Assembly: GCA_030998225.1 (NCBI GenBank) | Contig: JAPYXD010000728.1 | Coordinates: 806,001-870,000, forward strand | DNA length: 64,000 nucleotides | Origin: Diplolepis rosae | Taxonomy: Eukaryota > Arthropoda > Insecta > Hymenoptera > Diplolepididae | Reading direction: 5' to 3' | Part shown: piece after piece, positions 24,362 through 44,402 of the stretch | Numbering within the stretch: the first letter of the stretch is position 1 | Layout of the letters: each line of letters begins with the position of its first letter | Translations under genes and position numbers: made by a program | The notes under the pieces: model-generated | Seen by the model: only the letters and a program-made list of their open reading frames with translations | Told to the model about the DNA's origin: nothing | The model's database searches: none

Positions 24362-25194
24362 TGTTACGTCACAAGTACGCAAATATACTTACTTTGATCG
24401 AAGATTCCTCGTTTTAAGTTAGGATCGAATGATCCTCGCTTAGGGATGAGGATAAGTCAATGAAAGACACAATGATTATGAAAATAATACAAATTGAATT
24501 TATTTAAAAGAACAATGTACATTTGATTACACAATTTATATATAATGTAGGCACAGGCTGGTTGGTACGTGGGTGAGCGAGAGACAAAGAATAAAAAGAG
24601 AGAGAGAGAGAGAGATTCGGTACCTTTATGATGAGGGTTAATCCATAAGGCGGTGAGTTGAAAGTATGCAGGATCCCCACAGGTGTAGTCCAAGTGTGTG
24701 AGAGAGACGGAGTTATAGCCCGCACAGGTATATTCCGTAAGGGGCGGCGATTCAAATTTACGACACTGTTCGAAGATCTTTACAAGATCTATTCAAGTCT
24801 ACGATGACTTTTACGACTCCCGAACTTTGATTTTAAATTGTCCCGGTCGAATTTTATTAATCTCAAACTCAGAGATTTTCGAAGTTAAATTGAAATACCG
24901 CACAGGACTATTGTCGCGAGACCGGTTATAAATCCGAAGGAAATTTAAGTGTCGAACTAGACGAAGAATTTACTGACTGCTTTCTCTTGGTGTGGGCCTC
25001 TTTTATATTTTTCTATACAAATTGACGGTCAGCGAAAATCGTGACGTAGTCATATCTTCTTAGAGGAGAAGGGGCCCTATACTGCTCCCTACTTCCCCTA
25101 CTCCCTATTCCCCTTTATCGATTCTCTCATAGATTTCTAACTCAAACCAGCCTGTGTGTATTATATACATTCAAATACGTCGCGGGACGTGACA
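24362..25194 (-). repeat. 3' LTR of the 20-kb element
   Basis: On the minus strand it runs from TGTCACGTCCCGCGACG to GACGTAACA. A TATA box (TATATAAAT, 24534-24542) and an AATAAA polyadenylation signal (24499-24504) mark U3 and R. A GTAAGT donor-like site lies near the end. An AG-dinucleotide run (24596-24614) differs in length from the other LTR. Open frames across it (24457-24755) are not genes. Confidence 0.95.
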
Positions 25195-25205
25195 CCTCCC
25201 CCCTC
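25195..25205 (-). other. Polypurine tract of the 20-kb element
   Basis: On the minus strand GAGGGGGGAGG directly precedes the 3' LTR, the site where plus-strand DNA synthesis is primed. Confidence 0.9.
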
Positions 25206-25662
25206 AGTTCGAGCGCGGGGAGTTAACGATCCGCGATCGAAACTTCGGTAGAAGAATACATTTTTTTGTTTTGAAGAAATACATTCAACTCTTTTTCTGA
25301 TAACAATATCTGAATGATAAATATAACATTCATTTCGACGTTTGTTCTACAATTTGTATTTTTTTTTTTGCATTTTCACAATTTGATAAATTCAAATATT
25401 AACATATTTTTTGGATACAAATTTATATTGTCTTAATATTAAAAGTTTTTGTTATAAATTATTACATAGTTTTTTTTTTTTTTTCAAAATAGTTTGAACT
25501 TAGTATTAATATAAGGTTACAATGATTTATTTTGTTATATAACTGAATACATTAATATTTTTTATACGTGAATGGGGTATTTTATATTTGTAAATTATAA
25601 ATAACATGCTGTAATATATAAAATATAATTTTTATAATGTAGTAGATTAGTGAAAATATTCT
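25206..25662. other. 3' untranslated region of the 20-kb element
   Basis: AT-rich sequence with T-runs between the last accessory gene and the polypurine tract. No open frame of note. Confidence 0.5.
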
Positions 25663-26112
25663 TTAAGGGTTATTTTTATATTTTTTATTACGTAGAGGGT
25701 TGCGGCAGTTACGAGCTAAATGTCCTCTTTGAAAACACCTTTCACATGAATTAGTCCATTTTTGTAAAGCTTCTTTATTGTTTTTATCGCTTATATTATA
25801 AAATTTAGATTCTGTTATTAAGCATTTTTCTAACTTTTCTTCTAAAAATATATATTTCGTGGAAAGTGTTTCCAAGACTCTAGCTGCTGCATTTTGTTTT
25901 GCTACTTTCTTTTGGGACGCAGGTTCTCCAACACAAGCATAGGTTACATTATTTTTTAAAATTTCACAAGTTGCCTCGAATGGCGGCAGTTCTTGATGTA
26001 TTCCAAGAGATTTTACTGTGTATTCTGGTATTGAAAAATCATATTCAATACTTATTTCATTAAGTATTTGTACTGCGCTACCCTTTGTCAAATCTCTTTG
26101 TTGCATTGCCAT
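25663..26112 (-). CDS. dsRNA-binding-domain / CCHC zinc-knuckle protein 3
   Basis: A 149-residue protein with start ATG at 26112, after a TTGCAG acceptor-like site 10 bases upstream. Residues about 5-80 form a canonical dsRBD: LNEISIEYDFSIPEY (helix 1 and first strand), a middle beta-sheet part (PPFEATCEI) and the helix-2 signature KKVAKQNAAARVLETL with the conserved Lys-Lys-x-Ala-Lys that contacts the RNA backbone. A CCHC knuckle CERCFQRGHLARNC and a basic tail follow. By family knowledge the dsRBD binds double-stranded RNA without sequence preference; by inference the protein shields element RNA from Dicer/RNAi or supports packaging. It is the last gene before the 3' LTR and shares its architecture with the two genes at 31676-33029. 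No lesions. Confidence 0.85.
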   Translation of the reverse strand: MAMQQRDLTKGSAVQILNEISIEYDFSIPEYTVKSLGIHQELPPFEATCEILKNNVTYACVGEPASQKKVAKQNAAARVLETLSTKYIFLEEKLEKCLITESKFYNISDKNNKEALQKWTNSCERCFQRGHLARNCRNPLRNKKYKNNP

Positions 26113-26220
26113 TGTCCTTATCTGCAAAAGAATTATCTATTTGAGTTGTTTGTGATTTAATTTGATATAAATGGAAATTAGTTATTATTATTGTTAATAA
26201 TTATGTATATGGATTATAAA

Positions 26221-42527: not shown

Positions 42528-43537
42528 TGAGTTATTGTTAATTATCGATTGTTCATAACAATTTAAAAAAACTACATGTAAAATTTTGTTTGTAAATAAA
42601 GTGAAATTAGTAAAAATATAATTTTAATTTATAAAAATTCAAAAAATTTATAATAATAATTTCAAAATATAATTTAATTATTTTTATTTGTTTATAACAA
42701 TAATTAATATTTTTACTCTTTCATTAGGAAATAAGATAAGAAAATAAAAATATAATTCTATAAAATATTCAAATAAATAAATAATCGCTCAATTTTCGTA
42801 AAATTATAATGTTAAATAATACATTTCTTAAATTATAACAATATATATATATATATTTTGTACCAACCACGTGTGTCTTATAAATTATAATGATCTATTT
42901 TATTAATTTATTGAATTATAAATTGTTTTTTAAATAAATAAAATTGTTTATGACAAGGATCAGATAAGATTCGAGTTATGCACAAATTATTTTTCTCTAG
43001 ACTGGACAAGTTAGGCTCAAGCTCAGATCCTTGGACAATCTTTGCAAATAAAAATATTCTGTTCCTTAACAGAGTTAAAATTAAAGTTATAAACAATACA
43101 ATCACAAGCACTTCGAACTTTGCCCTACCCAATGATCGTAATCAATGGTGACCGTTCAACGTACCCAAAAGGGACTTATACTCTCGTGTGCTGTTTTTTT
43201 TTGTTTGTTTTAACTTAAATCAAAACTTAGTTAACAAATTAGAATAATTTTTTAATAAGATAAGTTACTTAATCACTTAGGTTAGCCTCAAGGTCAGATC
43301 CCTGCGTGATTTTTCAAACTTATTTTATTTTATACAATTTATATAAATTATAAAATTTCAAAGAAATGATTTGATTATTAAATCATTAAGGTTAGCCTCA
43401 AGGTCAAATCCCTTTGTGATCTAACAAATCTATTTTATTGAAATTTCAAGTTACAAGTTGAAATAATATTTCATAATCATTTATTTATTCACTAGAAATA
43501 ATCAATGCGTTAATTTTCAATTGACTTGTGTTTCCCG
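42528..43537 (-). other. 5' leader of the 20-kb element
   Basis: About 1 kb between the primer-binding site and gag. AT-rich, with a thrice-repeated motif of the form AGGTTAGCCTCAAGGTCAGATCC (43015-43035, 43280-43302, 43389-43412; the last two nearly identical). It may hold packaging signals. A 74-codon open frame (42908-43132) is not supported. Confidence 0.5.
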
Positions 43538-43550
43538 GGCCGATGCACCA
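43538..43550 (-). other. Primer-binding site, tRNA-Gly type
   Basis: On the minus strand TGGTGCATCGGCC (then CGGGAA with one extra C) is complementary to the 3' end of animal tRNA-Gly(GCC), which ends GGCCGATGCACCA. It lies 15 bases inside the 5' LTR, further than usual. tRNA-Gly priming is rare among errantiviruses, which mostly use tRNA-Ser or tRNA-Lys. Confidence 0.8.
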
Positions 43551-43565
43551 GAAAAAAAGGAAGTA

Positions 43566-44402
43566 TGTTACGTCACAAATACGTAAATACTTACTTTGAT
43601 CGAAGATTCCTCGTTTTAAGTTAGGATCGAATGATCCTCGCTTAGGGATGAGGATAAGTCAATGAAAGACACAATGATTATGAAAATAATACAAATTGAA
43701 TTTATTTAAAAGAACAATGTACATTTGATTACACAATTTATATATAATGTAGGCACAGGCTGGTTGGTACGTGGGTGAGCGAGAGACAAAGAATAAAAAG
43801 AGAGAGAGAGAGAGAGAGAGAGATTCGGTACCTTTATGATGAGGGTTAATCCATAAGACGGTGAGTTGAAAGTATGCAGGATCCCCACAGGTGTAGTCCA
43901 AGTGTGTGAGAGAGACGGAGTTATAGCCCGCACAGGTATATTCCGTAAGGGGCGGCGATTCAAATTTACGACACTGTTCGAAGATCTTTACAAGATCTAT
44001 TCAAGTCTACGATGACTTTTACGACTCCCGAACTTTGATTTTAAATTGTCCCGGTCGAATTTTATTAATCTCAAACTCAGAGATTTTCGAAGTTAAATTG
44101 AAATACCGCAAAGGACTATTGTCGCGAGACCGGTTATAAATCCGAAGGAAATTTAAGTGTCGAACTAGACGAAGAATTTACTGACTGCTTTCTCTTGGTG
44201 TGGGCCTCTTTTATATTTTTCTATACAAATTGACGGTCAGCGAAAATCGTGACGTAGTCATATCTTCTTAGAGGAGAAGGGGCCCTATACTGCTCCCTAC
44301 TTCCCCTACTCCCTATTCCCCTTTATCGATTCTCTCATAGATTTCTAACTCAAACCAGCCTGTGTGTATTATATACATTCAAATACGTCGCGGGACGTGA
44401 CA
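43566..44402 (-). repeat. 5' LTR of the 20-kb element
   Basis: Nearly identical to 24362-25194, with a longer AG run (43799-43823) and a few substitutions. It carries the same TATA box, AATAAA signal and GTAAGT. The right flank starts CCAA, matching the left flank of the other LTR. Confidence 0.95.
43589..43594 (-). promoter_or_regulatory. Candidate splice donor in U5 of the LTR
   Basis: AAAGTAAGTAT on the minus strand, about 24 bases before the LTR end, is a near-consensus 5' splice site in transcribed leader sequence. It could supply a short shared leader to the accessory mRNAs. Confidence 0.45.

Follow-up and report, generated by a model that had tools for sequence, protein, structure and literature searches.

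A recently inserted, damaged 20-kb Gypsy-type element of Diplolepis rosae with a predicted virus-like accessory gene set

Introduction

Errantiviruses have long terminal repeats (LTRs), a 4-bp duplication and a gag-pol order in which pol runs from reverse transcriptase through RNase H to integrase (RT-RH-IN), and their env is made by splicing. The insect Gypsy elements that carry env are usually described as gag-pol-env elements restrained by PIWI-interacting RNAs, while complex retroviruses of the human T-cell leukaemia virus (HTLV)/HBZ type carry several accessory genes, one of them antisense to gag-pol. Here, we describe an LTR element of 20,041 bp, whose sense strand is the minus strand, at positions 24362-44402 of a 64,000-nt stretch of the Diplolepis rosae genome (assembly GCA_030998225.1, contig JAPYXD010000728.1, positions 806,001 to 870,000; the window). 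Besides gag and pol, it has 10-11 further open reading frames (ORFs), all located after pol, including candidates for two fusogens and for three proteins with double-stranded RNA-binding domains (dsRBDs).

Parts of this gene set have been described in other systems, cited here from the portions of each paper available to us. F-type env genes are present in insect endogenous retroviruses (ERVs) (PMC12992720), and Anakin comprises BEL/Pao elements with a chuvirus glycoprotein inside their LTRs (PMC7642597). Gypsy fragments were found adjoining chuvirus-type glycoproteins in 2023, with no clear Gypsy capture in the available portion of that work (PMC10084718), and type III fusion glycoproteins were reported in mosquito gypsy elements in 2026; by that report, the capture of a glycoprotein by a gypsy element is not new (PMC13172572). 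In ant genomes, 253 Mono-Chu endogenous viral elements (EVEs) were counted over 19 genomes, 89.7% of them glycoprotein (PMC6540820). Regarding antisense genes, the plant LTR elements Grande, RIRE2 and Retand have a family-conserved antisense ORF between pol and the 3' LTR, and HTLV has an antisense promoter (PMC7264820). Among the papers listed in our literature survey, none appeared to describe a Gypsy element that encodes dsRBD proteins or combines two fusogen classes, and the phrase 'two envelope genes' did not occur.

Results

The LTRs end in TG..CA, the 4-bp duplication CCAA flanks the element on both sides, and the two repeats differ by 4 substitutions and 8 gap columns over 831 aligned sites. 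In sense order, the 5' LTR, the primer-binding site, gag, pol and a 93-aa ORF precede a chuvirus-type fusion glycoprotein gene (GP), two predicted dsRBD genes (dsRBD-A and dsRBD-B) and a Baculo_F-type (F-type) env, with gaps of 11, 37 and 60 nt separating GP, dsRBD-A, dsRBD-B and env on the sense strand. Downstream of env are two or three ORFs on the opposite strand, then Cys-rich A, Cys-rich B, dsRBD-C, the polypurine tract and the 3' LTR (Table 1). The primer-binding site matches over 13 nt what we take to be the 3' end of tRNA-Gly. Given only 4 LTR substitutions, the insertion appears to be young; yet the copy is not demonstrably functional, because pol, GP and env are each damaged. By its sequence, then, the element inserted recently and this copy is now damaged. 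These results agree with the sequence-only reading made earlier of this DNA, which had placed the same boundaries, marked by matching LTRs, the CCAA duplication, a primer-binding site and a polypurine tract, around gag, pol and extra genes, and had called the element recent. Of the eight to ten further genes that it counted, two or three are antisense, and three of the element's genes are interrupted.

Whether the accessory genes form one system was examined through their relatives in a protein collection, queried with dsRBD-A, antisense ORF 1 and GP. For dsRBD-A, 38 relatives were retrieved (48-99% identity, all from ENA). The sequence-only reading had named other copies of the LTR/pol family that lack all the accessory genes, together with flanks of these genes that show later independent insertions, as the finding that would speak for a chance nest; the comparison, run in part, had the opposite outcome, as 6 of the 38 extend into a neighbour in the order of the element, and 9 relatives of antisense ORF 1 were also found. 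One of the six runs from GP into dsRBD-A (P0037), four from dsRBD-A into dsRBD-B (P0033, P0035, P0036 and P0038), and one from dsRBD-A past what by eye is the start of dsRBD-B into env, at 66% identity (P0015). The remaining 32 match dsRBD-A only (24) or match both dsRBD-A and its paralogue dsRBD-C over one stretch (8). We infer that the fused relatives arose as copies decayed, through deletion or a change of frame, and on these sequences the adjacency GP-A-B-env is present in other, diverged copies. Viral contigs, scanned with dsRBD-A (single sequence and alignment), pol part 1, the integrase, and GP and antisense alignments, and genome contigs, scanned with GP, gave no confirmed relative; as these collections cover viruses and prokaryotes, the result says little about insect genomes.

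The number of ORFs after pol is far above chance expectation. The accessory region (25195-35700) holds 10 sense and 3 antisense ORFs of at least 90 aa, where 200 dinucleotide shuffles gave averages of 0.28 and 0.14, respectively. No shuffled ORF exceeded 135 aa in sense or 137 aa in antisense; six of the ten sense ORFs (149-587 aa) and two of the three antisense ones (175 and 191 aa) were longer than this, while the lengths of the others (135, 120, 94 and 93 aa sense; 100 aa antisense) fall within the shuffle range. Two of the ten sense ORFs are pieces of a single interrupted env frame, and the 94-aa one (29003-29287), opposite antisense ORF 3, is probably a shadow of the latter.

Table 1. Features of the element, listed in sense order (aa, amino acids; E, E-value of the Pfam match unless stated otherwise)
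Feature	Coordinates	Strand	Size	Remarks
5' LTR	43566..44402	-	837 bp	TG..CA; CCAA at 44403-44406
Primer-binding site TGGTGCATCGGCC	43538..43550	-		Sense strand, 15 nt inward of 5' LTR
gag	40656..42527	-	623 aa	Asn-rich; C-terminal CCHC knuckle (zf-CCHC, E 2.9e-4, just above cutoff)
pol part 1	37120..40707	-		Protease (DTG by eye), RVT_1, RNase H, long spacer; ends by frame change
pol part 2	35754..37205	-		Integrase (H2C2, rve, GPY-like module by eye); different frame
CARD-like ORF	35222..35503	-	93 aa	Predicted helical, low confidence; CARD similarity, E 0.094, below cutoff
GP, chuvirus-type fusion glycoprotein	33041..34984	-	587 aa from first ATG at 34804	PF24664, E 2.4e-213
dsRBD-A	32298..33029	-	243 aa	Two dsRBD stretches (dsrm, E 2.8e-14, above cutoff); partial C-terminal knuckle by eye
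dsRBD-B	31676..32260	-	194 aa	dsrm, E 0.007, below cutoff; knuckle-like C-terminus by eye
GC-skew block	27345..31795	.		Covers F-type env and antisense ORFs
Baculo_F-type env, N-terminal piece	30857..31615	-	252 aa	E 0.0017, below cutoff
Baculo_F-type env, C-terminal piece	29915..30826	-	303 aa	E 1.1e-14, above cutoff; same frame as N-terminal piece
Antisense ORF 3	29019..29594	+	191 aa	Acidic; no convincing family match
Antisense ORF 2	28336..28638	+	100 aa	Doubtful; T-tract at end
Antisense ORF 1	27714..28241	+	175 aa	9 database relatives, 5 full length
Cys-rich A	26705..27112	-	135 aa	Weak PHD-type match, E 0.0063, below cutoff
Cys-rich B	26221..26583	-	120 aa	Weak similarity to Cys-rich A, E 0.011-0.012
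dsRBD-C	25663..26112	-	149 aa	One dsRBD, E 3.2e-7, above cutoff; CCHC-like knuckle, E 0.027, below cutoff
Polypurine tract GAGGGGGGAGG	25195..25205	-		Abuts 3' LTR
3' LTR	24362..25194	-	833 bp	CCAA at 24358-24361

Judging by their families, GP and the F-type env are two unrelated predicted fusogens. Each contains one in-frame stop in this copy: in GP, the stop at 34985-34987 cuts the frame off from a signal-peptide-like start, and in env it lies between the two pieces (30857-30859). GP has 486 relatives in the protein collection at E 1e-10 or better, the best 120 of which were compared. Among these 120, all the rows named by organism are hymenopteran (ants, a sawfly and parasitoid wasps) except for one virus record, Hymenopteran chu-related virus OKIAV146 (P0107, 51%). 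A tree was built from 62 rows, with two rows from the window added to 60 of these relatives; in it, GP of the element groups with P0078, P0048 and P0049 (100/100), all from ENA; P0048 is a full-length, uninterrupted GP of 682 aa with 62% identity. A second chuvirus-type GP fragment is located at 3-1280 (+), where 425 open codons are cut by the edge of the window (PF24664, E 8.6e-156). It has 48% identity to GP of the element over 426 aa and pairs with a Trichogramma protein in the tree (98/86).

The three predicted dsRBD proteins resemble each other to different degrees, with E-values of about 3e-9 between B and C, about 6e-4 between A and B and 0.03-0.04 between A and C. PF00035 was matched by 20 of the 26 members of the dsRBD-A alignment, and the profile built from it (the window sequence and 25 of the 38 relatives) had Loquacious as its sole match in the PDB at E 0.01 or better (E 0.0059, with no single stretch passing alone). 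All three matches of dsRBD-C in the PDB at that threshold were to TARBP2, the best with E 0.0077. Loquacious and TARBP2 are Dicer partners. In addition, the knuckle region of gag resembles that of dsRBD-C (E 0.01-0.04).

The antisense ORFs lie together with env in a block of strong GC skew on the plus strand (G > C), which amounts to 0.41 within 27345-31795 and to 0.06 in the remaining inner element. We compared 212 overlapping windows of 600 bp, excluding 11 that straddled a border of the block or touched an LTR, against a threshold of 0.27 that was set post hoc. Skew above it was found in 14 of 14 windows inside the block, in 0 of 44 elsewhere in the element and in 0 of 143 outside the element. 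Segmentation by skew gave a likelihood gain of 68.9, compared with at most 20.9 in 30 chunk shuffles, which were run on a coarser grid. Since the block holds env and the antisense ORFs on opposite strands, the codon use of one gene does not explain the skew, and its extent suggests that F-type env and the antisense ORFs were probably acquired as one module with its own mutational history. The repeat list covered 20 of the 31 direct families and 25 of the 48 inverted pairs. None of the listed repeats longer than 55 nt lies inside 25200-36000, and thus the list holds no mark of a nested insertion there.

Five of the 9 relatives of antisense ORF 1 are full length (170-175 aa, 73-99% identity, a range that overlaps that of dsRBD-A) and four are shorter. 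Two of the shorter ones (P0045 and P0046) have an identical altered ending downstream of FDVF, which would fit the inheritance of a truncated form. A Pfam search with 10 members of this family returned only scattered matches of single members (best E 0.013), and searches of PHROGs and NCBIfam, with antisense ORF 3 among the queries, returned nothing useful. In the sequence preceding antisense ORF 1, a scan for sigma-70 sites gave 2 hits against a shuffle mean of 2.1, under a bacterial model unsuited to insects.

The pol gene is assigned to the Gypsy type by its domain order, RT-RNase H-integrase (Pfam RVT_1 and RT_RNaseH, then H2C2 and rve), as in Metaviridae/Ty3-Gypsy, a group whose TG..CA ends and 4-6 bp duplication the element also shows. 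No Pao-type family, which we presume a BEL/Pao pol would match in Pfam, appeared in the Pfam search at E 1; RT_RNaseH and H2C2 were matched instead. The RNase H and integrase domains are separated by a change of frame within an overlap at 37120-37205; it may be a programmed shift, although one inside pol would be unusual. In the spacer between these domains (37356-37873, -), we observed two AT-hook-like motifs, one matched by Pfam below cutoff (E 0.0087) and one seen by eye, and a run of acidic 12-bp repeats (16 copies at 37358-37552), features possibly related to chromatin tethering.

Apoptosis control, which the sequence-only reading had listed among the functions of the element, was not supported: its only sign is the sub-cutoff CARD match of the 93-aa ORF. 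A search of PDB sequences with this ORF had a best E of 0.2 and no CARD among its matches, and its structural model, with a mean predicted local distance difference test (pLDDT) score of 58, was not used for any claim about the fold.

The surroundings of the element are rich in repeats. A repeat of about 860 bp forms a cluster around it (22319-23192, 44485-46646 and 47084-48454), in complete or partial copies of both orientations that are 89-99% identical, and tandem arrays of 122-bp units (23696-24066, ending about 300 bp from the element) and of 117-bp units (2408-2919) were detected. Searching the window with each of the two element flanks gave repeat matches and no empty site. A decayed Gypsy pol at 52631-54830 (+) has 53% identity to pol of the element over 158 aa, and tblastn with the proteins of the element detected no accessory gene beside it. 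A relic at 55.0 kb, read by eye as an F-type env, was dropped as Pfam gave no confirmation. The region 16375-19560 (+) is GC-rich (52-57%) in an otherwise AT-rich window, and its frames resemble by eye a non-LTR retrotransposon (endonuclease and RT). Rfam detected a tRNA at 7763-7835, and ARAGORN, run with the bacterial code, found none.

Discussion

We consider it somewhat probable that the element belongs to a complex errantivirus-like Gypsy family, of which this is a recent, damaged copy, and that its accessory genes form a unit. Several results weigh against such a reading. No full second copy was found among the protein relatives, which are translations of ENA contigs, and those with 99% identity (P0001 and P0039) may represent the present locus as assembled elsewhere. 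A junction into a neighbour was absent from all 120 listed GP relatives and from all 9 relatives of antisense ORF 1, so a tie between this ORF and the element was seen in the present copy only; these 9 relatives also compare with 38 for dsRBD-A. The model of antisense ORF 1, built from 10 sequences, had a pLDDT of 35 and was discarded as uninformative, and the Pfam score of dsRBD-B was 17.4 bits against a cutoff of 23. Lastly, the sense strand shows no depletion of AATAAA (62 occurrences against a shuffle mean of 54.2; 172 of the 200 shuffles had 62 or fewer), and thus there is no sign of selection for a single uninterrupted transcript.

That unrelated virus-derived fragments gathered between the LTRs of an ordinary Gypsy element, a chance nest, was already disfavoured and seems to us highly improbable. 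The window is crowded with repeats and holds, outside the element, relics of Gypsy pol (3.7-5.9 and 52.6-54.8 kb) as well as the GP fragment at 3-1280, but the conserved neighbour order in six dsRBD-A relatives and the close spacing of several long accessory ORFs on the sense strand argue against a nest. An intermediate case, in which only the rest of the element is one system, while the env and antisense block either inserted later or derives from a different virus or element and sits in a smaller gag-pol-GP-dsRBD element, is unlikely on our assessment, even though the skew block is sharp and has its own borders, its genes lie on opposite strands and the antisense relatives are few. Against it, P0015 continues from dsRBD-A into the N-terminal sequence of env, placing at least env there in another copy, the partial repeat list has no entry above 55 nt in the region, and the stretch between the block and the 3' LTR holds dsRBD-C and the Cys-rich genes. 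It is also doubtful that the family is extinct and the locus a decaying copy without present function. The frame change in pol and the stops in GP and env are what a dead locus would show, but the LTRs have few substitutions, the remaining ORFs are still open and GP has an uninterrupted, full-length relative in P0048.

For the dsRBD proteins, the main competing explanation is a role as nucleocapsid or RNA-export or packaging factors for a 20-kb genome rather than as suppressors of RNA interference (RNAi), which we regard as a serious possibility, if a less than even one. The combination of a dsRBD with a knuckle in dsRBD-C (by Pfam, below cutoff) and dsRBD-B (by eye) and the weak knuckle similarity between gag and dsRBD-C point in this direction, and three paralogues are many for a single suppressor; the best solved relatives of dsRBD-A and dsRBD-C, on the other hand, are the dsRBDs of Dicer partners, at weak E-values. 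A function in RNAi evasion is, therefore, plausible on this similarity. In this respect, the sequence-only reading fits the three predicted dsRBD proteins and their Loquacious and TARBP2 likeness, but the E-values are weak and the function it named goes beyond them. The entry function that it proposed agrees with the recognition of both fusogen families, though neither gene is intact in this copy. Its suggestion that the element may behave as a complex insect ERV is upheld in part: the element looks integral, recent and of the Gypsy type, with virus-like genes, and the apoptosis component is not supported.

If the accessory genes do form a unit, a possible mode of action can be outlined. The 5' LTR would drive a full-length RNA for Gag-Pol, and spliced RNAs would supply two alternative entry proteins. 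Double-stranded RNA could form by convergent transcription, as antisense transcripts pair with genomic RNA, and the dsRBD proteins might bind it and shield it from Dicer-type enzymes; dsRBD-B and dsRBD-C, with their gag-like knuckle, might also ride on packaged RNA. The antisense ORFs would encode a regulatory protein, and the module comprising F-type env and the antisense block would have been gained in a single step. Taken as a whole, this would describe a complex insect ERV lineage in which two fusogen classes serve two entry routes or host ranges, a family of dsRBD proteins disarms the small interfering RNA pathway and an antisense regulator was acquired with F-type env, a proposal that we advance tentatively, as one that may well prove wrong. 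Should the family carry dsRBD proteins and an antisense gene, the question of a counter-attack of such elements on small-RNA silencing would become directly testable. It would also suggest that some of the many lone chuvirus-glycoprotein 'viral fossils' in insect genomes are envelope genes of such elements.

Among known systems, errantiviruses (Metaviridae: gypsy, ZAM and TED) share with the element an F-type env downstream of pol. Unlike them, with one env as the sole gene after pol, the element is about 20 kb long and exceeds their set by a second, unrelated predicted fusogen, three predicted dsRBD proteins, the Cys-rich proteins and the antisense ORFs. It resembles Anakin in having a chuvirus-type glycoprotein within its LTRs, but its pol matches other families. 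Identity with Troyka, which has a 3-bp duplication and CG..CG ends in the available portion of its description (PMC12440569), was ruled out by the 4-bp duplication and TG..CA ends found here. The Mono-Chu sequences of ants are likewise abundant in glycoproteins, but they are described as EVEs, and the gene set of the element is not described in the portion of that study available (PMC6540820). The plant elements have an antisense ORF in common with it, in plant hosts, and the available portion of their description mentions neither a dsRBD set nor animal-virus fusogens (PMC7264820). With complex retroviruses, the element shares the possession of predicted accessory and antisense genes; it differs in being an insect element with other gene families. 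If the proposed lineage is real, it would represent an animal counterpart of the deltaretroviruses, in that what these evolved on a retrovirus backbone would have been built anew on a Gypsy one.

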